Made by a program: the position numbers and the translations under genes. DNA of 64,000 nt from Thermaurantiacus tibetensis (GTDB lineage: Bacteria > Pseudomonadota > Alphaproteobacteria > Sphingomonadales > Sphingomonadaceae): positions 62,001 to 126,000 of the forward strand of contig NZ_JACHTM010000003.1 of assembly GCF_015354055.1 (NCBI RefSeq), written 5' to 3'. The notes under the pieces are model-generated. The model had not been told where the DNA came from. It worked only from the letters and a program-made list of their open reading frames with translations, and did no database searches. Below, one piece after another: positions 22,988 to 35,260 of this stretch; position 1 is the first letter of the stretch, and each line of letters starts with the position of its first letter.

Positions 22988-24181
22988 CTAGATCACGCCC
23001 TGTTCGGCAAGCGCGGCCTGCTCGGCCTCCGAGAGGCCGAGCGCGCCAAACACCTCGGCATTGTGCTCGCCCACACGCTGCGGCGCGAGGCTGCGCACGC
23101 CGCCTGGCGTCTTCGAGAACTTCGGGAAGCTGTTCTGCATGGTGATGGTGCCCCAGCGCGGGTGGGGAAGCTCGATGAGCGCTTCGCGGGCCTCAAAGTG
23201 CGGGTCCTCGAGCATGTCGGGGGCGCGGTAGATCCGGCCGGCGGGGACGCCTGCCTCGACCATCTTCGTCTCCAGCTCGGCGACCGTCAGCGTCCGCGTC
23301 CACTCGGCAATCAGGTCGTCGAGCTCCTTCTGGTGGCGGCCGCGCGCGATATGGGTGGCATAGCGCGGGTCGTCCTTGAGCTCGGGGCGGCCCATGGCGG
23401 CGCACAGGCGCGCGAACACCGTGTCCTGGTTGGCGCCGATCAGGAATTCGCCATCGGCGCACGGGTAGACGTTGGAGGGGGCGACGCCTGGCAGCACCGA
23501 GCCCGATCGTTCCCTCAAGTAGCCGGAGACGGTATATTCGGGCACGAGGCTCTCCATCACCTGCAGCACCGCCTCGTAGAGCGCGCTGTCGATGATCTGG
23601 CCCTCGCCGGTAAGGTCGCGGTGCCGGAGTGCAGCAAGCGCCCCCATGCAGCCGTAGGTGGCGGCAAGCGAATCGCCGATGGAGACGCCCATGCGCGCCG
23701 GCGGCCGGTCAGGGTCTCCGACGATCGCGCGCCAGCCGCCCATGGCCTCGCCGATGCCGCCGAAGCCGGCGCGCTCGGCATACGGGCCCGTCTGCCCGTA
23801 GCCTGACACGCGCACGACGATGAGCGAGGGCTTCTCGGCGAGAAGGTCGGCTGGCGCCAGGTTCCAGCCCTCGAGGGTTCCGGGGCGGAAATTCTCGATG
23901 AGGATGTCGGCGCCCATGATGAGGCGCCGCGCGAGCGCCTGGCCTTCGGGCACCCGCAGGTTGAGCGAGACCGATTTCTTGTTGCGGGCGACGATTTCCC
24001 ACCAGAGGGGATATTCGCCGCGGCCCCAGTCACGCATCGGGTCGCCCTTGCCGGGCGGCTCGATCTTGATGACGTCGGCGCCCATGTCGCCGAGGAGCTG
24101 GCCGCAGAAAGGGCCTGCAATCAGCTGGCCCATCTCGACGACCTTGAGGCCCGCAAGCGGACCAGACCCTGCTTGCCCCAT
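22988..24181 (-). CDS. Class III CoA-transferase (CaiB/BaiF family)
   Basis: 397 residues, the full length of the family. Recognisable segments are MGQLIAGPFCGQLLGDMGADVIKIE at the N terminus (in the known nucleotide-binding half), RNKKSVSLNLR near residue 70, and GVSIGDSLAATYG near residue 165 with the catalytic Asp that forms the acyl anhydride. These enzymes move CoA between carboxylic acids such as succinate, carnitine or mesaconate. It is the last gene of a tightly packed minus-strand operon behind HyuB-like, SRPBCC, HyuA-like and HMG-CoA-lyase-like genes (4-nt gap to hyuB). It probably activates the carboxylate product of the upstream hydrolysis. Substrate unknown. Confidence 0.93.
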   Translation of the reverse strand: MGQAGSGPLAGLKVVEMGQLIAGPFCGQLLGDMGADVIKIEPPGKGDPMRDWGRGEYPLWWEIVARNKKSVSLNLRVPEGQALARRLIMGADILIENFRPGTLEGWNLAPADLLAEKPSLIVVRVSGYGQTGPYAERAGFGGIGEAMGGWRAIVGDPDRPPARMGVSIGDSLAATYGCMGALAALRHRDLTGEGQIIDSALYEAVLQVMESLVPEYTVSGYLRERSGSVLPGVAPSNVYPCADGEFLIGANQDTVFARLCAAMGRPELKDDPRYATHIARGRHQKELDDLIAEWTRTLTVAELETKMVEAGVPAGRIYRAPDMLEDPHFEAREALIELPHPRWGTITMQNSFPKFSKTPGGVRSLAPQRVGEHNAEVFGALGLSEAEQAALAEQGVI

Positions 24182-24185
24182 GTCG

Positions 24186-26063
24186 TTACTCCGCAGCCTG
24201 CCTCAGGTGGTGCCACACGGGCGGCTTCGGCGGGGGCAGGCCAGTCTCGGCCTCGCACCGGGCGCGCAGCTCCTCGATGGTGCCGCCGAAGTCGAAGAGC
24301 GCGTTGCTGGTGGCCTTCGCCCGCATCTCGGCGCGGAGCGCCTCGGTTGCGGCCATGTCGAGCCGGCCCTCGCCGTCGCAGACGACCCCGTAGCGCCGCG
24401 CGCCCTCGGGAGTCACGAGGCCCTGCCGCACCTCCTTGGCCACGAGCGCCGGGTCGCGCTCGAGCGGGTCGCCCCAGCCGCCGCCGCCCCAGGTGATGAA
24501 GTGGAGCACATCGCCCTCCTCCACCCTGAGGCTGTCGATCTTGTTGGGGACGACCTTCGTCGTGCCGTCGGCCTTCTCGAGGATCTTGCGCGCCCGCGCA
24601 CCCGGCTTCCCGCCATTCACCCCCCAGGGGTAGGTGAACCAGCGGTCGTCGTGGATGGAGACGGTGCCGGGCTCGAGGAAGCGATAGCTCATCTTGATGC
24701 CGTTGCCGCCGCGGAACTTGCCCGGGCCGCCGCTGTCGGCGAGCGCCTCGTAGCGCTCGATCCGGAGCGGGAAGTAGCGCTCGAGGAACTCGTTGGGGAC
24801 ATTGGTGAAGCCCGGCCAGAGCGAGTGGCCGTCGGGCCCGTCGCCGAAGGGCTTGCCCGGAATGCCGCCGAAGCCGATCTGGAAGAGCTGGAACCACTCG
24901 CCCTTGCGGTCGCGGCCCGAGTACATGAGGTGGGGCGAGGAGGAGAAGCCGGCCGCGCACAGGAACTCGGGCGTGCGCTGGCCGAGAAGGCCGCCCAGGA
25001 TGTCGAAGATTCGGCCCAGCGCATGGGTACGGCCCGAGAGTGCGGCGGGATAGCGGGGCTTGAGCAGCGAACCTTCCGGGATGCGCACCTCGATGAGGTC
25101 ATAGAAGCCGTCGTTGAACATGATCGCCGGGTCGAAGACCATGATCATGTAGATGCCGAAGAACATCTTGAACATGTTCTCGTTGAGATAAAAGTTGATC
25201 GAGGCCTCGGACTGCGGGTCGGTGCCGTCGAAGTCGAGGATGACCTTCGAGCCCTCGCGCCACATCGCGCAGCGGATGCGGTAGGGCCCGTAGCCGACCC
25301 CGTCGTCGCAGACATAGTCCTCGAAGGTGACGCGATCGGTCGACACCGAGCTTTCGATGAGCGCCTTCATCGCGCGATAGTTGCGCTGGAGGAGCGCCTC
25401 GGTCGCCGAGACATAGACGTCGTCGCCGAAGCGGTCGCACATCTCCTGCACGCGGCGGGCAGCCACCCGGCACGAGGCAATGAGGGCGTTGAGGTCGGCC
25501 GCGCACCAGTCGGGCTTGCGCGTCTGGTGCATGACGAGCTTGATGAGCTCGTGGTTGTAGACGCCGCGCGCGTAGAGCTTGACCGGCGGAATGCGCACCC
25601 CCTCCTCGAAGATGGAGCTGGCATCGATCGGCATCGAGCCGGCGACCTTACCGCCGATGTCGGACTGGTGGCCGAACATCGCCGTCCACGCCACCAGCCG
25701 GCCGGAGCGGAAGACGGGGAGGAGCACCAGCCAGTCGTTCGAATGGGAGATCGCGCCCTCGCAGCTGTAGGGGTCGGACAGGAAGATCATGTCCCCGTCC
25801 TCGATGTCGCCGTCGTAAGCCTTGAGGAAGCCGTCGATGAAGCTTCCGAACTGGCCGACGATCATGCGCCCCTTGTGGTCGGCAATGAGCGGGAAGGCGT
25901 CGCCCTGCTCGCGAATCCCCGGCGACATGGCGGTCCGCGTCAGCGTCGCGTCCATCTCGATCCGGGCGTTGCGCAGCGCGTTCTCGATGATGTCGAGGGT
26001 CACAGGGTCGATGTTGACGGCCGCGAAGGGCTTGGGGTTGGTCTCGACGATGCGGGCGGGCAT
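24186..26063 (-). CDS. Hydantoinase B / oxoprolinase family subunit
   Basis: 625 residues from the ATG at 26063. Family landmarks include TRTAMSPGIREQGDAFPLIA near residue 40, GQFGSFIDGFL, DGDMIFLSDPY near residue 95, HSNDW, and HQSDIGGKVAGSMP. HyuB-type subunits work with HyuA-type subunits in ATP-driven opening of hydantoin, 5-oxoproline or lactam rings, or in acetone/acetophenone carboxylation. The HyuA partner is encoded upstream but separated by a secreted SRPBCC gene; the gaps are 2 nt and a 4-nt overlap. Start choice is supported by GGAGCCC shortly upstream. Substrate is not determined by sequence. Confidence 0.93.
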   Translation of the reverse strand: MPARIVETNPKPFAAVNIDPVTLDIIENALRNARIEMDATLTRTAMSPGIREQGDAFPLIADHKGRMIVGQFGSFIDGFLKAYDGDIEDGDMIFLSDPYSCEGAISHSNDWLVLLPVFRSGRLVAWTAMFGHQSDIGGKVAGSMPIDASSIFEEGVRIPPVKLYARGVYNHELIKLVMHQTRKPDWCAADLNALIASCRVAARRVQEMCDRFGDDVYVSATEALLQRNYRAMKALIESSVSTDRVTFEDYVCDDGVGYGPYRIRCAMWREGSKVILDFDGTDPQSEASINFYLNENMFKMFFGIYMIMVFDPAIMFNDGFYDLIEVRIPEGSLLKPRYPAALSGRTHALGRIFDILGGLLGQRTPEFLCAAGFSSSPHLMYSGRDRKGEWFQLFQIGFGGIPGKPFGDGPDGHSLWPGFTNVPNEFLERYFPLRIERYEALADSGGPGKFRGGNGIKMSYRFLEPGTVSIHDDRWFTYPWGVNGGKPGARARKILEKADGTTKVVPNKIDSLRVEEGDVLHFITWGGGGWGDPLERDPALVAKEVRQGLVTPEGARRYGVVCDGEGRLDMAATEALRAEMRAKATSNALFDFGGTIEELRARCEAETGLPPPKPPVWHHLRQAAE

Positions 26064-26065
26064 GG

Positions 26066-26611
26066 TCAGGGCTCCTTCTGCGCAGGCTCGGCGGATGGGG
26101 GCGGCGGGGTGTGGGCAAGAAGCCGGGCGAAGGCTTCGGGGAAGAGGGCATTGACAGGCGCGGCGAGGCTGTCGAGCTTCGCGGAGGCAGGCCCGCCCAC
26201 CCGGCAGGTGAGGGTCAGGCGCGTGCCCTGCCCTTCGGGCGCAAGCGCGAACTCGAGGACGCCGGCGACGGACAGCGCCTGGAGCGCACCGAAGGCGGCG
26301 TGCCTGCGCAGGAGCTTGGGCGGCATGGCGAGCACCACCTCGCCGTGGCTGGCCCAGCCGCCGTCCCATTCCTCCTCGAGCTCACCGTCGGCCTCGGCCC
26401 CGAAAGAAAGATTCGCCGCCTTGCCGGAGAAGGTCTGGGCGTCCGGCCACCAGCCGCTCCAGTCGGCGAGCGCCGCCCAGGCCTCCGCGGGCGGCCTCGG
26501 CGAGAGGCCGGAGAAGCGCAGGGTGAAGCCGTCGGGCGCGGACGCCACCACTTCGGCCGCAGCCTGCGCGGGTGCGGCGAGCAGGGCAGCGAGGAGAAGC
26601 GCGCGCATCAT
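26066..26611 (-). CDS. Secreted SRPBCC/START-like protein inserted between hyuA and hyuB
   Basis: 181 residues from the ATG at 26611, whose ATGA overlaps the hyuA-like stop. A signal peptide (MMRALLLAALLAAPAQAAAE) precedes a SRPBCC-like fold: FSGLSPRPPAEAWAALADWSGWWPDAQTF at about residues 35-63, strands through the middle, and a long C-terminal helix (LFPEAFARLLAHT). The family binds hydrophobic ligands. The tail is Pro-rich. An exported ligand-binding protein inside an operon of cytoplasmic ring-opening subunits is odd and suggests substrate capture in the periplasm. Function is otherwise unknown. Confidence 0.75.
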   Translation of the reverse strand: MMRALLLAALLAAPAQAAAEVVASAPDGFTLRFSGLSPRPPAEAWAALADWSGWWPDAQTFSGKAANLSFGAEADGELEEEWDGGWASHGEVVLAMPPKLLRRHAAFGALQALSVAGVLEFALAPEGQGTRLTLTCRVGGPASAKLDSLAAPVNALFPEAFARLLAHTPPPPSAEPAQKEP

Positions 26612-28644
26612 GCGGGCCGGATGAGGATGTTGCCGAAGGGGTCGACGGTGGCGAGATGGCCGGTGTGGACGAGGGTGGTCGAGTCCATCTCGCAGATGAT
26701 GGCGGGTCCGGGCACCCGGTCCCCGGCGCGCAGGCGCGCGCGGTCGTAGATTGCCGCCTGCTGCGCCCTGCCGTCCATCCACAGCTCGTGGTCGCGCAGC
26801 TTGGCGGCAGACGGGTCGCCGTTGCCTTCCGCAATCCGCTCGGCCGTCACGTTCGCGGCCTTGCCGAGTGCGACCACGCGGATGTTCACGAGCTCCTGCG
26901 GCACGGGCAGGTTGAAGGTGAAGAGCCGGAGGTGTTCGGCATCGAACCGGGCGGCAAGCTCGGCGATCGAACCGCCCCGGGCGAAGGGCAGCGGGACCTC
27001 GAAGGCCTGGCCCGCGTAGCGGACATCCACCTCGACCGCGAGCTCGATCTCGGCAGGGGCCACGCCTTCGGCCGCAAGCTCCGCCGTCACCTCCTTCGCG
27101 ATGGTGTCGATGACGGCCTCGACCTCCGCCTCGTTCGTCTGCGTCACCAGCCGGTTGAAGCTCCGCTGGGCATCGACGCGCAGCCGCGTGGTGGCGTCAC
27201 CATAAGCGCAGAGGATGCCCGGCGACGGCGGGATGATGACCGGCCAGGAGCCCATGAGAATGCCCATGGCATTGCCGTGGAGCGGCCCGGCGCCGCCGAA
27301 GGCCATGAGGGCGAAGTCACGCGGGTCATAGCCCTGCTGCACCGAGACCAGCCGGAGCGCCCCGAACATGGTCTCGTTCACGATCGAGATGATGCCGGCA
27401 GCGGCGTCCATGAGGCCGAGACCGAGCGCATCGGCAATGGTCTGGACCGCCCGGCGCGCCGCCTCGCGGTCGAGCCGGAAGCTGCCGCCGAGCAGGTTCT
27501 CGGGCAGGTAGCCGAGGACAACGTTGGCGTCCGTCACCGTCGGAAGCTCGCCGCCGCGGCCGTAGGCGGCAGGGCCGGGCACGGCGCCGGCCGACTGCGG
27601 CCCAACGCGAAGCGCCTTGGTGAGCTCGGGCACGCTCGCGATCGAGCCGCCGCCTGCCCCCACCGTCTTCACGTCGAGCGACGAGGCTCGCACCGTCAGA
27701 TGGCCCACGCTCGTCTCGCGCCGCAGCCGCGGGGCATAGTTCTCGATGAGCGCGACGTCGGTCGAGGTGCCACCCATGTCGAGGGTGAGAACGTTCGGAA
27801 AGCCGGCGTTCTTCGCCACGAAGACGGCACCGGCGACGCCACCTGCAGGCCCCGACATGAGGAGGTTGACCGGCGCCTCGGCGCTCTTCTCGGCCGTCAT
27901 GAGGCCGCCGTCGGAGCGGAGCAGGTGGAGCTTGGCAGAGGTGCCCCAGGCCTTCAGCTCGCGGTCGAGGTTGCCGACGTAGCGGGCAACGGTCGGCCGC
28001 ACGGCCGAGTTGGCGACCGTCGTCAGCGCCCGCTCATACTCCTGCATTTCGGGCAGGATGTCGGAGGAAAGGCTCACCGGCACGCCCGGAAGCTCCTCGG
28101 CGAGAATAGCGCCGACGCGCTTCTCGTGCGCAGGGTTCACATACGCGTTGATGAGGCAGACGGTCACCGCCTCCACCTTCTCCTCGCGCAGCCGCTCACA
28201 GGCCCGCCGGAGTGCCGCTTCGTCGAGCGGGCGCACCACCGAGCCGTCGGCGGCGATGCGTTCGGGCACCTCGATGGTGGCCTCGAGCGGGGCCATCGGC
28301 TCGGGCTTGGGCCAGACGATCCAGGCGGCAAGCCCGCCGGGCACCAGGCTGCGCGCGATCTGGAGGATGTGGCGATAGCCCTCGGTCACGACGAGCCCCA
28401 CGCGCGCGATCTTGGCCTCGAGCACGGCATTCGTCGCCACCGTCGTGCCGTGGAGGAAGAGCGAGAGGGACTCCGGCGACACGCCGGCCTTCTCGCAGAC
28501 GGCCCGGGCGCCGGCGATCACGGCGCGCGACGGGTCGTCGGGCGTGGAGGGCACCTTCTCCCGCCAGGTTTCGCCGCTCTCCTCGTCGATGACGAGAAGG
28601 TCGGTGAAGGTGCCGCCGACATCCACCCCCAGACGATAGCTCAT
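26608..28644 (-). CDS. Hydantoinase A / oxoprolinase family subunit (ATP-dependent)
   Basis: 678 residues. The N-terminal phosphate loop GVDVGGTFTDLLVID, the second ATP-site motif DMGGTSTDVALI (near residue 290) and the adenosine-region glycines GAGGGSIA place it in the ASKHA-fold HyuA family. It starts by ATGA overlap with the HMG-CoA-lyase-like stop and ends overlapping the SRPBCC start. With the HyuB-like subunit it would hydrolyse a cyclic amide at the cost of ATP. Together with the nearby isochorismatase-fold amidase, this resembles the N-methylhydantoin to N-carbamoylsarcosine to sarcosine route, but other lactams are possible. Confidence 0.94.
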   Translation of the reverse strand: MSYRLGVDVGGTFTDLLVIDEESGETWREKVPSTPDDPSRAVIAGARAVCEKAGVSPESLSLFLHGTTVATNAVLEAKIARVGLVVTEGYRHILQIARSLVPGGLAAWIVWPKPEPMAPLEATIEVPERIAADGSVVRPLDEAALRRACERLREEKVEAVTVCLINAYVNPAHEKRVGAILAEELPGVPVSLSSDILPEMQEYERALTTVANSAVRPTVARYVGNLDRELKAWGTSAKLHLLRSDGGLMTAEKSAEAPVNLLMSGPAGGVAGAVFVAKNAGFPNVLTLDMGGTSTDVALIENYAPRLRRETSVGHLTVRASSLDVKTVGAGGGSIASVPELTKALRVGPQSAGAVPGPAAYGRGGELPTVTDANVVLGYLPENLLGGSFRLDREAARRAVQTIADALGLGLMDAAAGIISIVNETMFGALRLVSVQQGYDPRDFALMAFGGAGPLHGNAMGILMGSWPVIIPPSPGILCAYGDATTRLRVDAQRSFNRLVTQTNEAEVEAVIDTIAKEVTAELAAEGVAPAEIELAVEVDVRYAGQAFEVPLPFARGGSIAELAARFDAEHLRLFTFNLPVPQELVNIRVVALGKAANVTAERIAEGNGDPSAAKLRDHELWMDGRAQQAAIYDRARLRAGDRVPGPAIICEMDSTTLVHTGHLATVDPFGNILIRPA

Positions 28645-29645
28645 GCTGCTTGCCTCTCCGCCACCACGAAATCCCCGGCGCGACCCACCCGGCTCGGGAG
28701 CGCCCGGCCCATGACGCCCGCGAACCAGCGGTTCGCCTCCAGCGCGGCCTCGAGCCGCAGGCCGGTTGCAACGCCCGAGCGTTCGAAGAGGTAGACCAGC
28801 TCTTCGGTTGCGACGTTGCCGGTGGCCTTGGGTGCGAACGGGCAGCCGCCAAGACCGCCCAGCGCCGAGTCGAACACCCTGACGCCCGCTTCGTACGCCG
28901 CCCAGGCGTTGGCGGGGGCCAGGCCGCGCGTGTCATGAAGATGGATCCGCACCGGGACATGGCCGACCGCCTCGCGGACGCGGGCGACAAGGTCGGTGAC
29001 CTGGGCGGGCACCGCCACGCCGATGGTGTCGGCGAGTGCAATCTCCTCCGCCCCCGCCTCGGCCATGGCTTCTGCCAGCGCGACCACCCGCTCAGGGGGC
29101 ACCGCGCCCTCGAACGGGCAGCCGAAGGCCGCCGAGATGGTCACCTGCGCGAACAGGCCGCCGGCCTTCGCTGCCTTCAGCATCGCGCGGTTGGCGGCGA
29201 TGCCGTCGGCCACCGTCTGGCCCTGGTTGCGGATTCCGAAGGCGTCGGTCGCCACTAGCACGCAGCCGGCCTCGTCAAGCCCGCCGTTCGGAAGCTCGCG
29301 CGTGGCGAGCGCGCGCTCGACGCCGCGCGGGTTCAGGCACAGCCCGATGGCGGAATAGCCACGGGCAGGCCTGGGAGGGAGGGCGGCAATCACGTGTTCC
29401 GCATCGGCCATCTGCGGCACGCGGCGCGGGTTGACGAAGCTTGCCACCTCGATCCGGGTGGCGCCGAACCCGGCCAGCCGGGCGATGAGCGCCACCTTGT
29501 CGGCGGTGCCCACCATTTCCTTCTCGTTCTGGAGGCCGTCGCGCGGCGCCACTTCGACGATGGTGACCGACGGCTTTCCCGCCACCCCCTCGCCGGCCCT
29601 GTTGCCTGCCCCGTCGCCCACCGAACGGCCCACTGCCGGATCCAT
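28641..29645 (-). CDS. Hydroxymethylglutaryl-CoA lyase family aldol-type lyase
   Basis: 334 residues from the ATG at 29645; an in-frame GTG further up would cross the operator. A TIM barrel with HMG-CoA-lyase hallmarks: VAPRDGLQNE (catalytic Asp/Arg), SFVNPRRVPQMAD, HLHDTRGLAPANA (metal His pair) and GLGGCPFAPKATGN with the catalytic Cys loop. Such enzymes split 3-hydroxy-3-methyl acyl-CoA compounds to acetyl-CoA plus a keto acid. It is the first gene of the operon running to the CoA-transferase, so the true substrate may be an operon-specific hydroxyacyl-CoA. A TGTATACA palindrome lies about 50 nt upstream. Confidence 0.92.
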   Translation of the reverse strand: MDPAVGRSVGDGAGNRAGEGVAGKPSVTIVEVAPRDGLQNEKEMVGTADKVALIARLAGFGATRIEVASFVNPRRVPQMADAEHVIAALPPRPARGYSAIGLCLNPRGVERALATRELPNGGLDEAGCVLVATDAFGIRNQGQTVADGIAANRAMLKAAKAGGLFAQVTISAAFGCPFEGAVPPERVVALAEAMAEAGAEEIALADTIGVAVPAQVTDLVARVREAVGHVPVRIHLHDTRGLAPANAWAAYEAGVRVFDSALGGLGGCPFAPKATGNVATEELVYLFERSGVATGLRLEAALEANRWFAGVMGRALPSRVGRAGDFVVAERQAA

Positions 29646-29693: not shown

Positions 29694-29701
29694 TGTATAC
29701 A
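29694..29701. promoter_or_regulatory. TGTATACA palindrome, putative GntR operator, divergent promoter region
   Basis: An 8-bp perfect palindrome, extended as TCTGTATACAAA, lies between the divergent starts of the HMG-CoA-lyase-like gene (29645) and the amidase gene (29761). The same core forms the perfect 12-bp palindrome in front of the racemase-like operon at 31103. FCD-type GntR regulators bind short palindromes of this kind. Confidence 0.65.
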
Positions 29702-29760: not shown

Positions 29761-30435
29761 ATGGCGAAGGACGATGTGAGCGACGTGGCAGCCGACTATC
29801 GCGCCGCCGGGTTCGGCGGCACCCTGCCCTGGGGCACGAAGCCCGCCCTCCTCCTGGTCGACTTCGCTGCCGCCTACTATGTCCGCAGCTCCCCGCTCTA
29901 TGCTGGCGTCGAGGACGCCCGCGCCGCCGCCGCGGAGCTGGCGGATGCCGCGCGCGCCGCAGGCGTTCCGGTCATCTTCACCCGCGTCGAATATGTGCCG
30001 GGCGACCCGGCCAGGAACGGCGGGCTCTTCTACCGGAAGATCGCAGCGCTGTCCTGCTTCGATGCCGGGAACCCGCTCGGCGACTTCACGCCCGAGCTCG
30101 CGCCGCAAGCGGGCGATATCGTGGTCACCAAACAGTATCCGAGCGCCTTCTTCGGCACCAGCCTTGCCGACATGCTGCGCAGCAAGGGCATCGACACGCT
30201 GGTCATCACGGGGCTCTCGACGTCCGGCTGCGTGCGCGCCTCGGCCGTCGACGCGCTCTGCCACGGCTTCGTGCCGCTCGTCGTCCGCGACGCCTGCGGC
30301 GACCGGGACCGCGCGATCCACGAGGCCAACCTGTTCGACCTTGCCGCCAAGACCGCCGACGTGATCGGGCTCGCCGACGCGCTGGCCTATGTGGCGCGGG
30401 CCGGATCGCTTCCGGAGGCGTCCACGAAGGCGTGA
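29761..30435 (+). CDS. Isochorismatase-fold amidohydrolase (N-carbamoylsarcosine amidase-like)
   Basis: 224 residues from the ATG at 29761, preceded by AAAGGA. The catalytic triad of cysteine hydrolases of this fold is complete: Asp in LLLVDFAAAYY, Lys in VVTKQYPSAFFGT and Cys in STSGCVRASAVDA. The N-terminal extension (about 30 residues before the first strand) and the FYRK segment resemble N-carbamoylsarcosine amidases and maleamate amidohydrolases rather than isochorismatases. It is divergent from the HyuA/HyuB operon and likely acts on the ring-opened product, releasing ammonia. Its last 49 nt overlap the convergent GntR gene. Confidence 0.87.
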   Translation: MAKDDVSDVAADYRAAGFGGTLPWGTKPALLLVDFAAAYYVRSSPLYAGVEDARAAAAELADAARAAGVPVIFTRVEYVPGDPARNGGLFYRKIAALSCFDAGNPLGDFTPELAPQAGDIVVTKQYPSAFFGTSLADMLRSKGIDTLVITGLSTSGCVRASAVDALCHGFVPLVVRDACGDRDRAIHEANLFDLAAKTADVIGLADALAYVARAGSLPEASTKA

Positions 30436-31043
30436 TAGGCCCGGCGAATGTGGCCGGTCATCACGGCCCGCGCCCATTCCGGGTCGTGCGCGGCGAGCGC
30501 CCGCACCAGCTCGGCGTGCTCGGCAGCCGATCGCTCGAGCGCGTCGCGTCCGTAACGCTGGGCGGTGCGCCGAACGACCGGCTGCTCCACGAGAAGCGAG
30601 AGGATTGCGGGCAGGCGCGGCGAGGCGGCGGCTGCCAGGATCCGGGCATGGAAGGCGCGGTTCGCCTCGAGGAAGGCCTGGATGTCGGCGCTCGGCCGCG
30701 CGATGGCCGCCTCGAGCCTCGCGTTGATCGCCCGCAACTCCTCGAGCGCTTCGGCGTCGATCCGCGTCGCAGCGCGCGCTGCGGCATGCGCTTCGACCAT
30801 GCTTCGCAGCGCGAACAGCTCCTCCACGTCTTCCGCCCGCCAGTCGGCAACCTGCATGCCGCTGCCGTTGCGCACCACGTAAAGCTCGCCCTCGAGCCGG
30901 CGCAGCGCGTCGCGCACGGGCGTGCGGGAGACACCGCAGCGGGCAGCCAGCTCCTCCTCCTTGAGCCGCGTGCCCGGCGGTGCCTGGCCCGAGAGGATGA
31001 GCCCGCGGATCTCGGCATAGGCGATGTCGGCCGCGCGCGACAT
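30387..31043 (-). CDS. GntR-family transcriptional regulator, FCD subfamily
   Basis: 218 residues from the ATG at 31043, with a good AGGAAAGGG site upstream. The N-terminal winged helix (IAYAEIRGLILSGQAPPGTRLKEEELA, then GVSRTPVRDALRRLEGE) is canonical GntR. The C-terminal all-helical FCD ligand domain begins near residue 85 (DVEELFALRSMVEAHAA). Conserved metal ligands of FCD domains fit Asp/His in ANRAFHARIL, the SAAEHAELV segment and GHIRRAYH. It is embedded in the catabolic island and probably represses it. TGTATACA-type palindromes sit next to its own start, in the racemase-side promoter, and in the amidase/lyase promoter. Confidence 0.93.
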   Translation of the reverse strand: MSRAADIAYAEIRGLILSGQAPPGTRLKEEELAARCGVSRTPVRDALRRLEGELYVVRNGSGMQVADWRAEDVEELFALRSMVEAHAAARAATRIDAEALEELRAINARLEAAIARPSADIQAFLEANRAFHARILAAAASPRLPAILSLLVEQPVVRRTAQRYGRDALERSAAEHAELVRALAAHDPEWARAVMTGHIRRAYHAFVDASGSDPARAT

Positions 31044-31102
31044 GGGCTGCCCTTTCCTTCCTCCCCTGTCAAAACCGTTGGGTGACGGCCATCCTGAGCC
31101 TC

Positions 31103-31114
31103 TCTGTATACAGA
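31103..31114. promoter_or_regulatory. Perfect 12-bp palindrome TCTGTATACAGA, putative GntR operator
   Basis: It lies between the divergent GntR gene (start 31043) and the racemase-like gene (start 31144), 30 nt before the latter ATG. The core matches the palindrome at 29694-29701. The position allows autoregulation and control of the downstream four-gene operon. Confidence 0.7.
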
Positions 31115-31143
31115 AACGGTCGCCGTTGCCAGCCGGGGAGCCC

Positions 31144-31896
31144 ATGTCCGAGACCCGCAGGATCAAGGTCATCGTGCCGATCCCGATGGACGCCACCGGC
31201 GTTGCGGCCCGGGCAGCCCAGCTTCCGGCACATCTCGTCTCTCCCGGTTACGCCCCCGAGTTCGTGGCCGTCCCCTGGGGCGCGGCGCTCGGGGACAGCT
31301 ACCACGACATGCTCCTCATGGACTGGACGGTGTTCCAGGCCGGGATCGACGCCGAGCGGGAAGGCTATTCCGGCGTGCTCATCGACACCGTGTCGGACAG
31401 CGGTCTGCGCGCGCTGCGGTCGGCGCTTTCCATCCCCGTCGTCGGGCCCGGCGAGGCGGCGTTCGCAACCGCGATGATGCTCGGCAAGCGGTTCACCATC
31501 CTCACCATGTGGCCGCAGTGGTTCCCGCTCTACGAGAAGACGCTCACCGAATATGGCTGGTGGGACCGGGTGGCCTCGCTCCGCTCGATCGACACCCGGC
31601 CCGACGTGACCGAGCTGCTCGCGGGCAAGGAAGAGGTGATCTTCGCGAAGCTCAAGGCCGAAGCGGAAGCTGCCATCGCCGAGGACGGGGCCGACGTCAT
31701 CGTCCTCGGCTCCACCACGATGCACCAGTCGGCCGCCTATCTTGCAGCCGAGCTGCCGGTTCCCGTCATCAATCCCGGGCAGGTGGCGTGGAAGCATCTC
31801 GAGCTTTTGCTGTCGCTCGGCCTTTCGCACTCGAAGCGGGCGTTCCCGGCCCCGGAAGTGGAACGGCGCGAGCAGATCCGGAGGGCCCTGCCATGA
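31144..31896 (+). CDS. Asp/Glu/hydantoin racemase-superfamily protein lacking catalytic cysteines
   Basis: 250 residues from the ATG at 31144, preceded by GGGGAG. The fold is recognisable from IKVIVPIPMDATG, SGVLIDTVSDSGLRALR, IPVVGPGEAAFATAMMLGK and DVIVLGSTTMHQSA. In active racemases and hydantoin racemases the two acid/base Cys sit in the NCxxDPG and LGCxGM positions. Here these read DTVSDSG and LGSTTM, and the whole protein contains no Cys. It therefore should not racemise by the two-cysteine mechanism. It may use Ser/Asp for a lyase, isomerase or decarboxylase reaction. First gene of an operon with two SnoaL-like proteins and a TonB receptor. Confidence 0.87.
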   Translation: MSETRRIKVIVPIPMDATGVAARAAQLPAHLVSPGYAPEFVAVPWGAALGDSYHDMLLMDWTVFQAGIDAEREGYSGVLIDTVSDSGLRALRSALSIPVVGPGEAAFATAMMLGKRFTILTMWPQWFPLYEKTLTEYGWWDRVASLRSIDTRPDVTELLAGKEEVIFAKLKAEAEAAIAEDGADVIVLGSTTMHQSAAYLAAELPVPVINPGQVAWKHLELLLSLGLSHSKRAFPAPEVERREQIRRALP

Positions 31897-32324
31897 CGTG
31901 GACCGAGGGCGGAGCGGGCCAGCGCCCCCTCCCCTACCCCTTTTACGTGGACATCGTGACGAAGCGCTACTTCGACGGTGTCGACAACAAGAACCTCGAG
32001 CAGGTGCTCGACTGCTTCACCGAGGATGCGGTGCTGACCGAGGTGACCTCGAACACGGTGCATGCAGGGCGCGACACGGCCATCCGCGCGATGTTCCAGA
32101 AGCTCTTCGCCGACTTCGAGTCCATCTGGCACGGCAACTTCGTGCACGTGGCGGACCCTGCGAGCAATGCGATCTGCTCGCAGTTCACCGTGCTCATCAC
32201 GCCGAACGGCGGCAGCGAGCTGCGGTACGAGAATGCCAACCGCTTCTACCTGAAGGACCGGCTGTTCCACCGCGTCTACGTCTACATGAGCGGCGACAAC
32301 CTGCTGAAGCCGGGAGACGCCTGA
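31893..32324 (+). CDS. SnoaL-like (NTF2 fold) small protein, first of a pair
   Basis: 143 residues, started by ATGA overlap with the racemase-like stop. The NTF2-like cone shows in YFDGVDNKNLEQVLDCFTEDAVLTE, a middle TVHAGRDTAIRAMFQKLF and the terminal strand RVYVYMSGDNL. SnoaL-like proteins are isomerases, cyclases, dehydratases or binding proteins with no signal peptide, so it is cytoplasmic. It shares the plan and the closing VYVYMSGxN segment with the protein encoded next, suggesting tandem duplication and a possible heteromer. Reaction unknown. Confidence 0.85.
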   Translation: MTWTEGGAGQRPLPYPFYVDIVTKRYFDGVDNKNLEQVLDCFTEDAVLTEVTSNTVHAGRDTAIRAMFQKLFADFESIWHGNFVHVADPASNAICSQFTVLITPNGGSELRYENANRFYLKDRLFHRVYVYMSGDNLLKPGDA

Positions 32325-32722
32325 TGCAGTATCCCTGCTTCCTCGACCGCGCCGGCCTCGTCGATCTTGCCATCCACCGCTATTTTGCTGCCGTCGACCG
32401 GAAGGATCTCGCAGCAACGCTGGCCTGCTTCCACGAAGAGGCGCTCTTCACCATCCAGACGAGCTTCACGACCCACGCCGGCAAGGCGGCCATCGAGCGG
32501 ATGTTCGTGGACTTCTTCGGCGCGTGGGAGACCATCGTCCACAAGGATTTCGTGACGACGGTCGATGCCGCGCACGGCCGCATCGCGGCCAGCTTCGAGG
32601 CGGTGCTGACCGCGGCCGACGGCTCGGTCACCCGGCTTTTCAACACCAACTTCTGGCGGATCAGGGGCGAGCGCTTCCAGGAGGTCCATGTCTACATGAG
32701 CGGCGCGAACGTCCTCGTCTGA
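32324..32722 (+). CDS. SnoaL-like (NTF2 fold) small protein, second of a pair
   Basis: 132 residues. Start and previous stop share one base (TGATG), so translation is coupled. The same plan as its neighbour: HRYFAAVDRKDLAATLACFHEEALFTI, FTTHAGKAAIERMFVDFF and VHVYMSGANVLV. It appears to be a diverged paralogue. An Asp/His-lined pocket is typical of the fold, but no catalytic set can be assigned. The operon context places it in the same pathway as the cysteine-free racemase-like protein. Confidence 0.85.
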   Translation: MQYPCFLDRAGLVDLAIHRYFAAVDRKDLAATLACFHEEALFTIQTSFTTHAGKAAIERMFVDFFGAWETIVHKDFVTTVDAAHGRIAASFEAVLTAADGSVTRLFNTNFWRIRGERFQEVHVYMSGANVLV

Positions 32723-32758
32723 GAAGGCCGGGCGCTGCCAAGCGAAGGGGTGAAGACG

Positions 32759-35260
32759 ATGCGTGCCATGCTGCTTCTCGGCGCCGCCCTTGCGGCCTTC
32801 CCCGCGACCGAAGGCCGGGCGCAGACCGCTGCCGGAGCCGCGGAGGGCGCCGGAGAGGAGATCATCGTCACGGCGCGCCGGCGCGACGAGCGGCTGGCCG
32901 ACGTGCCGGCCTCGGTGACCGTGCTCACCGCCGATACCATCCGCACCACGGGCATCCAGACGGCGGATGCCTTCGTGCAGCTGACCCCTGGCGTGACCAT
33001 CGTCACCGGTACCGCCGAGGCGGGCGACACGCAGATCAACATCCGCGGCATCAACGGCGCGCGCGACGCGGAGAGCTCGGTTGCCCTCGTCGTCGACGGC
33101 ATCCTCAAGACCAACGTGGCGCAGCTCAACCAGCGCCAGGGCACGCTCCGGCAGATCGAGGTGCTCAAAGGGCCGCAGGGCGCCTACTACGGCCGCAACG
33201 CCGCGGCAGGGGCGATCGTGATGTCGACGGTGAAGCCCGGCGACACCCTCGAGGCCGGAGGTCGCGCGCTCTACGCCAACAACCGTACCTTCGAGGCGGA
33301 TGCCTTCGTCGCCGCCCCGCTCAACGACCGCGTGGGGGCGGTGCTGTCGGCCTGGTACCGCACGACCGACGGCTGGTGGACCAACCGCTTCCTCGGCTCG
33401 AAGACCATCGATGACCAGGAGGTCTTCGCAATCGACGGCCGCTTCGTCATCGAGGCGGGCGATGCCACCGAGATCGACATGAAGGGCCGCTTCTCAACCC
33501 TGCGCGGCGCCTCGATCGCCTTCAACGCCGCCTTCCACCTGCCGAACTTCGCTGGCGCGAACCCGGCCTTCTTCGAGGACGTGAACGCGCACCGGTTCGA
33601 CTTCTACTCGAACATCCGGCCCACCAACGCGCAGGACACGTTCGAGTTCTCCGGCAAGATCGACCATGACTTCGGGCCGGTCCGGCTGACCGCCTGGGCG
33701 CTCTACTCGAACGTGAAGCAGAATCTGGTCGCCGACGGCACGTCCGCGGACTTCGCCCGCTATATCTCGGCCGTGAACCCGGCGGTCGCGTCGACCGTCA
33801 ACGCCTGCTTCGCCTCGACGGCGGCGTTGACTGGCTATCCTCTCAACCCGCCGGCCTTCATCGGCCAGATCCCGGTGCCCTTCATCTTCGCCCCCGCGAA
33901 CGGCTCGACGTTCGGCCCCTACTCGCCGACCACCTGCGACGGCACGCAGTACCAGAAGCGCGACCAGGAAGACGTGAGCGCCGAAATCCGGCTGGTCTCG
34001 AACACCGATGGTCCGCTCTCCTGGCAGGCGGGCTTCTACTTCCTTCACATCGACCGGACGGTCGCGATCAACCTGGCCGGCGACACGGGCAATGGCGTCA
34101 TCCGCCAGATCTACAACCCGCCGACCTCGACCAACCCCACCTCCCAGCTTCTGGCCGACAACTTCCGGACCAACGTCTACGCAGTCTTCGGGGCGGTCGA
34201 CTGGGACGTGACCAGCCGCTTCACGGCCGGGGCGGCACTCCGCTACGACATCGAGAAGCGCCGGGCGATCCCGCTCGTCCCGAACGTGACTGACCCCTTC
34301 ACGGGCGGCCCCATCAACCCGGGCCAGGCGTTCGGACCGCTGGTCGAGAAGTCCGATGACTGGTCGCAGGTGCAGCCCAAGGTCACGCTCAGCTTCCGGC
34401 CGACGCCTGCCACCAACATCTACGCCAACTGGGGAATCGGCTTCAAGTCGGGCGGGTTCAACAACCAGGGCTCGGCGACAATCGTCCAGCAGAACTTCGT
34501 CGACTTCATCGGAGCGCAGGTGCGCATTCGCGACGATTACGACAAGGAGACCTCGAACGCGGTCGAAGCCGGCGTCAAGGGCACGCTCTTCGACGGACGC
34601 CTCTCCTATGACGTCGCCGGCTACTTCACGAGCGTGAAGGACATGCAGTTCTTCGAGTTCTTCGTGGGCGGGTTCGGCCTGCTCCGCGTCGTCTCGAATA
34701 TCGACAAGGTCCACATCTGGGGCGGCGAGTTCAACCTTTCGGCTCAGGTGCGCGACGGCTGGACGGTGTTCGGCGCAGCCAACATCCTCGGCAGCGAGAT
34801 CCGCGCGAACAGCTCGCGGCCCGACACGGTCGGCAACAAGTCCCCCTACACCGCCGACTACACGGTGAACGTGGGCACGCAGGTTCGCCAGCCCCTCGGT
34901 TTTGGCGGGCTCTCCGGCCTGCTCCGGTTCGACTGGCGGCTTACCGGCCCCACCTGGTTCCACACGGTGCAGGCGCAGGAGAAGCCCACGCTCTTCTCGG
35001 GCCTCCTGCCCGGCTCGGCGCTTGGTCTCCCGGCCTTCGTCGGCAACGCCAACTACAGCATCGCCCGCCGCGACGCCTTCGGCATCTTCAACCTGCGCGC
35101 CGGGATCGAGACCGGCCGCTGGAGCCTCGTCGGCTTCGCCGAGAACCTGACCGACCGGCGCTTCGTTGCCGAGGTCATTCCCGCGGTCGAGTTCGGCGGC
35201 TCGTTCATCTCGCCGGGCGCGCGGCGGCTGGTGGGGGTTGAGGGAACGATCCGTTTCTGA
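32759..35260 (+). CDS. TonB-dependent outer-membrane receptor of the catabolic island
   Basis: About 833 residues. The ATG at 32759 is preferred because AAGGGG lies 8 nt upstream; GTG 32750 overlaps that site. A signal peptide (MRAMLLLGAALAAFPATEGRAQ) is followed by the TonB-box region EEIIVTARRRDERLADVP and a plug domain (LTPGVTIVTG, INIRGINGARD, VLKGPQGAYYGRNAAAGAI) to about residue 150. A long barrel ends in EGTIRF. The plug wording is typical of the large sphingomonad receptor group used for organic substrates. It is the last gene of the racemase-like/SnoaL operon, so its ligand is probably the substrate degraded by the island. Confidence 0.94.
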   Translation: MRAMLLLGAALAAFPATEGRAQTAAGAAEGAGEEIIVTARRRDERLADVPASVTVLTADTIRTTGIQTADAFVQLTPGVTIVTGTAEAGDTQINIRGINGARDAESSVALVVDGILKTNVAQLNQRQGTLRQIEVLKGPQGAYYGRNAAAGAIVMSTVKPGDTLEAGGRALYANNRTFEADAFVAAPLNDRVGAVLSAWYRTTDGWWTNRFLGSKTIDDQEVFAIDGRFVIEAGDATEIDMKGRFSTLRGASIAFNAAFHLPNFAGANPAFFEDVNAHRFDFYSNIRPTNAQDTFEFSGKIDHDFGPVRLTAWALYSNVKQNLVADGTSADFARYISAVNPAVASTVNACFASTAALTGYPLNPPAFIGQIPVPFIFAPANGSTFGPYSPTTCDGTQYQKRDQEDVSAEIRLVSNTDGPLSWQAGFYFLHIDRTVAINLAGDTGNGVIRQIYNPPTSTNPTSQLLADNFRTNVYAVFGAVDWDVTSRFTAGAALRYDIEKRRAIPLVPNVTDPFTGGPINPGQAFGPLVEKSDDWSQVQPKVTLSFRPTPATNIYANWGIGFKSGGFNNQGSATIVQQNFVDFIGAQVRIRDDYDKETSNAVEAGVKGTLFDGRLSYDVAGYFTSVKDMQFFEFFVGGFGLLRVVSNIDKVHIWGGEFNLSAQVRDGWTVFGAANILGSEIRANSSRPDTVGNKSPYTADYTVNVGTQVRQPLGFGGLSGLLRFDWRLTGPTWFHTVQAQEKPTLFSGLLPGSALGLPAFVGNANYSIARRDAFGIFNLRAGIETGRWSLVGFAENLTDRRFVAEVIPAVEFGGSFISPGARRLVGVEGTIRF

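Follow-up and report, generated by a model that had tools for sequence, protein, structure and literature searches.

A protein of the Asp/Glu racemase family was found that carries hydroxyl residues at both positions of the catalytic cysteines and is encoded within a conserved gene cluster. The protein, here termed RAC (250 aa), is encoded at 31144..31896 on the + strand of the window, i.e., the whole analyzed stretch of 64,000 nucleotides from Thermaurantiacus tibetensis, and has Thr82 in place of the first cysteine (Cys1) and Ser190 in place of the second (Cys2). Our reading of RAC as a thiol-free isomerase or lyase with an allantoin/hydantoin-racemase fold and a hydroxyl pocket, borne on an accessory cassette, is tentative and taken as a whole stands a little short of even. 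What is new is the gene setting of RAC; neither a described Cys-less member nor this gene cluster was found in the open-access PMC literature.

The open reading frame starts with an ATG at 31144 and stops at 31896, and a ribosome-site-like stretch (GGGGAG) lies 5′ of the ATG. Starting at an alternative in-frame ATG, at 31024, would lengthen the protein to 290 aa; this extension crosses a palindrome at 31105–31112, and the alignments of relatives with RAC begin at about residue 1–5, not in the extension. RAC matched PF01177 (Asp/Glu racemase family) with 110.5 bits (Pfam cut-off 31), no NCBIfam model supplied a name, and the best relatives of solved structure were allantoin racemases (phmmer, E 2e-19). 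An AlphaFold2 model of RAC, built from 28 window and relative sequences (pLDDT 87.7), adopted a pseudo-symmetric two-domain fold with Z scores of 28.2 to 5lfd and to 3qvk, 22.6 to OpaE, 16.2 to arylmalonate decarboxylase (3dg9) and 14.9 to 5elm. The allantoin racemases KpAllR/HpxA (3qvj, 3qvk) and AllR of P. fluorescens (5lfd) are PF01177 members like RAC and match it with Z of about 28 over 234–240 residues at 27–30% identity. The fold motif VVGPGEAA, pointed out in an earlier note on this DNA, is indeed present (residues 99–106). Confidence in the model was low in the loop with Lys162-Glu163, the block 151–160 having a mean pLDDT of 60. The other PF01177 member in the same genome has the motifs ACNTAS and ACTHF, which we take to be the usual two-Cys glutamate-racemase motifs.

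In the phmmer alignment, DTVSDSG (residues 81–87, codons 31384..31404, + strand) and LGSTTM (residues 188–193) fell on both Cys regions of the Klebsiella allantoin racemase, which read iacfgdpg and vlgcggm in 3qvj; 3qvk, an engineered variant, has Ser at both. The earlier note's observation that both catalytic Cys positions are changed is confirmed; comparisons of sequence, profile, and fold spoke against a misplacement of the catalytic residues. Exactly DTVSDSG and LGSTTMHQS (residues 188–196, codons 31705..31731, + strand) were present in all 85 distinct close orthologues (86 alignment rows, the window gene being included twice). Ser84, Thr191, Thr192, Trp123, Lys162, Glu163 and His194 were likewise found in 85/85. 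As codons 82, 84, and 190 vary synonymously among close orthologues and the median dN/dS was low (0.13, 70 random orthologue pairs), these three residues are held by selection. The headline of the earlier note, that there is no cysteine at all, is true of the 250 residues of RAC, but such an absence has a probability of about 10% by chance (2.3 cysteines expected, P(0) = 0.098, at the rate of 17 window genes), and 54 of the 85 orthologues carry at least one Cys elsewhere. With only 31/85 orthologues wholly Cys-free, what matters is the site-specific replacement, and the overall number of cysteines does not define the trait.

A scan of species genomes yielded 80 RAC loci, 74–92% identical and nearly all from Sphingomonadales, plus Eilatimonas; Blastomonas natatoria and Erythrobacter dokdonensis are among the carriers of the cluster. 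Profile searches returned matches in 56 of 396 genomes of the order (E ≤ 1e-28), 51 of 385 of the class (E ≤ 1e-20), and 7 of 398 of the phylum (E ≤ 1e-28), tallies whose weakest matches include Cys-bearing relatives. Among the fetched loci, matches of at least 205 bits all had Ser in place of Cys2, with Thr, Ser, or Ala in place of Cys1; this did not hold for degenerate tandem second copies, which nest among the Cys-less rows, nor for a single A/G row (L130). The next group, at 115–154 bits, included a Thr/Cys type and was otherwise mostly Cys/Cys. In the wider family, Ser84, Ser190, Thr191, and Glu163 were kept in 48/48 non-redundant rows (three degenerate paralogue rows and the A/G row being omitted) and Lys162 in 45; His194 was exchanged for Tyr or Ser in four rows and position 82 was Ala in one. 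All 18 C/C rows have Cys at the second position.

The earlier note had proposed a phylogeny to see whether the Cys-free clade is large, and this is the case; the Cys-less family stands separate with a support of 99. The midpoint-rooted tree was calculated from 75 representatives of 167 distinct rows, cut at 80–90% identity. Cys-less rows split from the Cys-bearing rows, to which the A/G row was joined, with UFBoot 99; this value belongs to the bipartition of 51 Cys-less rows (including three degenerate second copies) against 24 others, while the node of all 51, as rooted, has 66. By sequence comparison, the exchange of the cysteines is old, extends over the whole lineage, and is under selection. 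Since a large selected lineage lacks both cysteines, the name “aspartate/glutamate racemase family protein” misleads here.

The Thr/Cys branch (NTVGDYG or NTFGDYG with LGCTCM; L155, L156, L157, L118, and L119) groups in the tree with the Cys-bearing rows, suggesting a separate loss of the first Cys in this branch, with the second kept. Cys-less relatives also occur as tandem pairs or triplets (L131–L135, L185–L187). In Tistrella and Neorhizobium petrolearium a second copy lacks both motifs (in Tistrella, e.g., ADPGDYG and LWQPLTAAA), as if the tandem decayed copies formed hetero-oligomers.

RAC is followed on the + strand by two genes for SnoaL-like proteins, SnoaL_a (NTF2-type, 31893..32324) and SnoaL_b (32324..32722), and by a TonB-dependent receptor (32750..35260, start codon uncertain). 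The SnoaL_a start and the RAC stop share 4 bases, pointing to coupled translation. A GntR/FCD-type regulator (30387..31043, − strand) is divergent from RAC, and IsoC, an isochorismatase-fold, amidase-like cysteine hydrolase, is encoded at 29761..30435 (+ strand). IsoC keeps D34, K124, and C157, presumably the Asp-Lys-Cys triad of isochorismatase-fold amidases. On the − strand lie an HMG-CoA-lyase-like protein (HMGL, 28641..29600, start uncertain), HyuA and HyuB of the hydantoinase A and B/oxoprolinase families (26608..28644 and 24186..26063, respectively), and a family III CoA-transferase (22988..24181). HMGL scored 288.8 bits against NF004283, above the cut-off of 246, an assignment at subfamily level only. 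For HyuA and HyuB the best models were caprolactamase alpha and beta, and CapA/CapB and other HyuA/HyuB operons are among the systems nearest to the cluster; as their scores of 530.6 and 212.4 bits are far under the equivalog cut-off of 1000, they were not assigned to caprolactamase. The CoA-transferase scored best with short dicarboxylate CoA-transferases, the nearest models being succinate-glutarate and succinyl-CoA:mesaconate CoA-transferase, though it reached the cut-off of neither. Between HyuB and HyuA lies a small ORF (26066–26620, − strand), by eye a possible secreted SRPBCC-like protein; it is present at 82% in one genome of the same genus, is matched more weakly in a few further genomes, and is absent from most relatives.

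Across the 80 loci, some of which are cut by contig ends, the regulator and the TonB receptor were each present in 78, SnoaL_a and SnoaL_b each in 76, HyuA in 74, HMGL in 72, HyuB in 69, the CoA-transferase in 65, and IsoC in 48. These neighbor assignments were made by tblastn or Pfam matches; the gene-cluster grouping and the search for replacements (see below) used a simple gene caller, which gives only rough calls in GC-rich DNA and does not work on low-GC loci.

The cluster probably encodes a core pathway for a cyclic amide- or imide-type compound. A cyclic amide, imide, or ureide would be taken up and opened, ammonia would be released through IsoC, and the resulting acid would be activated with CoA and then cleaved by the HMG-CoA-lyase-like enzyme. 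HyuAB, IsoC, the CoA-transferase and HMGL, together with the distant settings, would fit such a ring-opening and a subsequent C-C cleavage, the latter acting on a branched dicarboxylate. Among these distant settings, whose protein families were scanned for Neorhizobium and Variovorax only, Cys-less relatives in Neorhizobium are accompanied by HyuAB, a RutB-like hydrolase, and PrpB-like, MmgE/PrpD-like, and TcuA-like FAD proteins, those in Variovorax by a PuuE-like protein and a RutB-like hydrolase; those in Tistrella have PrpB-like, MmgE/PrpD-like and TcuA-like FAD proteins. The PuuE-like and RutB-like neighbors in Variovorax offer a lead, at most, to allantoin or purine use by the wider family, as all scores were below cut-offs. 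Since some members sit in unrelated settings, such as one in Novosphingobium EMRT-2 amid a Rieske oxygenase and a P450, a single class of substrate may not suit the whole family. Among the carriers are many from genera that, we assume, include aerobic anoxygenic phototrophs (Erythrobacter, Porphyrobacter, Blastomonas), and from these genera a pigment breakdown product was raised as a possible substrate. Degradation of auxin (IAA), with HyuAB, the CoA-transferase, and the lyase opening oxidized IAA, was considered and dropped, the available part of the iad paper (PMC12633357) being without such genes.

The same steps, i.e., ring-opening, half-amide hydrolysis, CoA transfer, and a lyase, would also suit a route from a substituted maleimide, on which RAC would act as a maleate-isomerase-like cis-trans isomerase on a substituted maleate produced by HyuAB and IsoC; the PrpB-like and MmgE/PrpD-like proteins of related operons are in line with this. 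However, maleate isomerase forms a covalent succinyl-cysteine, according to the title of entry 2xed, and RAC has no Cys that could serve as the active-site nucleophile. We regard this route as quite improbable.

The RAC and SnoaL genes can be absent from an otherwise complete cluster. We searched 149 genomes of the family and found a close HyuA (E ≤ 1e-200) in 38. Of these 38, 11 contained core-type RAC, and exactly these 11 also contained SnoaL_a, a co-occurrence with a chance probability of 8e-10 if the genomes were independent, which they are not, the genes also being physically linked. Two of the 38, counted as lacking RAC, have a distant relative in the Cys-less range (318–329 bits) that is not on the HyuA contig. 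Loci were inspected in 22 of the 27 genomes negative for core-type RAC: none contained RAC or SnoaL, 18 had all seven other genes, and 19 kept the palindrome described below. No gene regularly replacing the cassette was common to more than three of the 22 loci, and a crotonase stood beside the cluster in two only. Genera g332 and g502 each show both states, so gain or loss of the cassette is recent. This distribution shows that RAC and the two SnoaL-like proteins form one accessory three-gene cassette on a self-standing seven-gene core. The pathway thus stands complete without RAC in the RAC-less loci, with RAC-SnoaL-SnoaL as an extension, and because nothing regularly replaces the cassette, it is most simply read as converting an isomer or a precursor. 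RAC together with SnoaL_a and SnoaL_b would then convert an alternative isomer or a precursor into the core substrate.

The perfect co-occurrence and the gene overlap with SnoaL_a would also suit a RAC that is a pseudoenzyme, binding a ligand or playing a structural part alongside the SnoaL pair, and related operons in Tistrella, Neorhizobium, and Variovorax contain tandem second copies with both motifs decayed. Yet the main copy shows no variation in its pocket motifs in 85/85 close orthologues, a conservation beyond what a scaffold would need, and some members of the wider family have no detected SnoaL neighbor. We consider a pseudoenzyme rather unlikely.

Returning to RAC as an active, thiol-free enzyme, the replacement of both catalytic cysteines means that the family's two-thiol 1,1-proton transfer is unavailable, and the earlier note's exclusion of the standard two-base thiol mechanism is well supported. 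Ser mutants of OpaE and EcL-DER (the L-Asp/Glu-specific racemase of E. coli) agree with this. In the available part of PMC12661438, where the Cys pairs are called “conserved across the superfamily,” the OpaE variants C199S and C90S/C199S have ≤ 0.3% activity; in that of PMC12838360, EcL-DER C197S is inactive, while RacX functions despite having Ala at its first site and its C193S variant is markedly reduced, kcat and Km showing mixed effects. As OpaE, RacX, and EcL-DER show, the second Cys is the more important one in the superfamily; RAC has Ser there. For another racemase family, the accessible portion of a review (PMC8142540) describes a Cys-to-Thr exchange that turns an epimerase into a dehydratase.

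RAC differs from each of the known systems compared. KpAllR has two cysteines (79 and 184), whereas RAC has Thr82 and Ser190 in another gene setting; the catalytic Cys pair of hydantoin and allantoin racemases is thus missing. EcL-DER and RacX, of the same superfamily but more distant in fold (5elm), have Thr and Ala, respectively, at the first position and keep the second cysteine (Cys197 and Cys193); Thr82 of RAC agrees with the EcL-DER type, Ser190 does not. OpaE and NozR belong, like RAC, to the hydantoin-racemase subfamily and act on non-classical substrates, but OpaE needs both cysteines.

RAC likely catalyzes a different reaction from that of the two-thiol racemases. The lineage has exchanged both thiols for the hydroxyls of Thr82 and Ser190, alongside the invariant Ser84, Thr191, and Thr192, and the hydroxyl-lined pocket may bind and stabilize an enolate or a carboxylate. 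Proton steps would fall to non-thiol groups, with Lys162-Glu163 on a flexible loop, His194, and water as candidates; by residue count only, Lys162-Glu163 fall in the region of substrate loop B of OpaE. RAC could instead still be a racemase or epimerase, its Thr82 and Ser190 hydroxyls acting, with Lys162 or water, on an unusually acidic C-H such as that of a cyclic imide or ureide. Its closest relatives in fold and sequence are allantoin/hydantoin racemases, and an enantiomer converter would be expected to look like this, an optional cassette that adapts isomers to an already complete pathway. However, Ser at the second Cys position abolishes activity in OpaE and EcL-DER, according to the portions cited above, and INPNT of several C/C relatives is IVPIP in RAC, making this unlikely in our view. 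A cofactor-free decarboxylase of the arylmalonate decarboxylase kind, with a hydroxyl dioxyanion hole and water protonating the product, appears very unlikely. RAC resembles arylmalonate decarboxylase in the superfamily fold (Z 16 to 3dg9), in lacking the first Cys, and in a Thr/Ser-rich anion-binding site, and the available part of PMC4996985 places Thr75/Ser76 in the dioxyanion hole, but the Gly74 of that enzyme is Thr82 in RAC, its sole proton donor Cys188 is Ser190, and RAC falls in the hydantoin-racemase branch by sequence, not with the decarboxylases. The Cys-less lineage is a natural experiment on how the chemistry of a proton-transfer fold can change.

RAC and the core operon share a palindrome. 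TGTATACA occurs twice in the window, between GntR and RAC (31105..31112) and between the HMGL-HyuA-HyuB operon and IsoC (29694..29701), against 0.01 expected, and none of 100 shuffles reached two sites. In the 80 related loci we counted 149 sites (1.7 expected under a first-order Markov model), distributed over 79 loci; a site lay within 250 nt upstream of RAC in 74 loci, with no such site in the other six, and an extended consensus of approximately ATTGTATACAAT was seen at both site classes. The whole genome (2.75 Mb) has three TGTATACA sites, two of them at this cluster. Ten other carriers had 15 TTGTATACAA sites in eight genomes; 11 of these sites lay no more than about 4 kb from RAC, and of the remaining four one was located between HMGL-HyuA and CoA-transferase-IsoC on another contig. 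In 10 RAC-less genomes the pattern occurred three times in three genomes, twice in RAC-less copies of the cluster. A scan of 30950–31200 for sigma-70 promoters and terminators found nothing. The palindrome marks the promoters of RAC and of the HyuA-HyuB-HMGL-like operon and would serve as a shared switch, the GntR protein being the obvious candidate to bind it. A defined regulon of palindrome, seven-gene core, and optional cassette opens a genetic route to the substrate through related strains with and without the cassette.

The third TGTATACA site (C13:335480-335487) is outside the window and precedes a second TonB receptor; the large subunit of a molybdenum hydroxylase comes next, with a luciferase-like monooxygenase and an alpha/beta hydrolase nearby. 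This locus is a possible third member of the regulon and might hint at an N-heterocycle as substrate. In a same-genus genome (L208), the arrangement of site, receptor, and regulator is identical.
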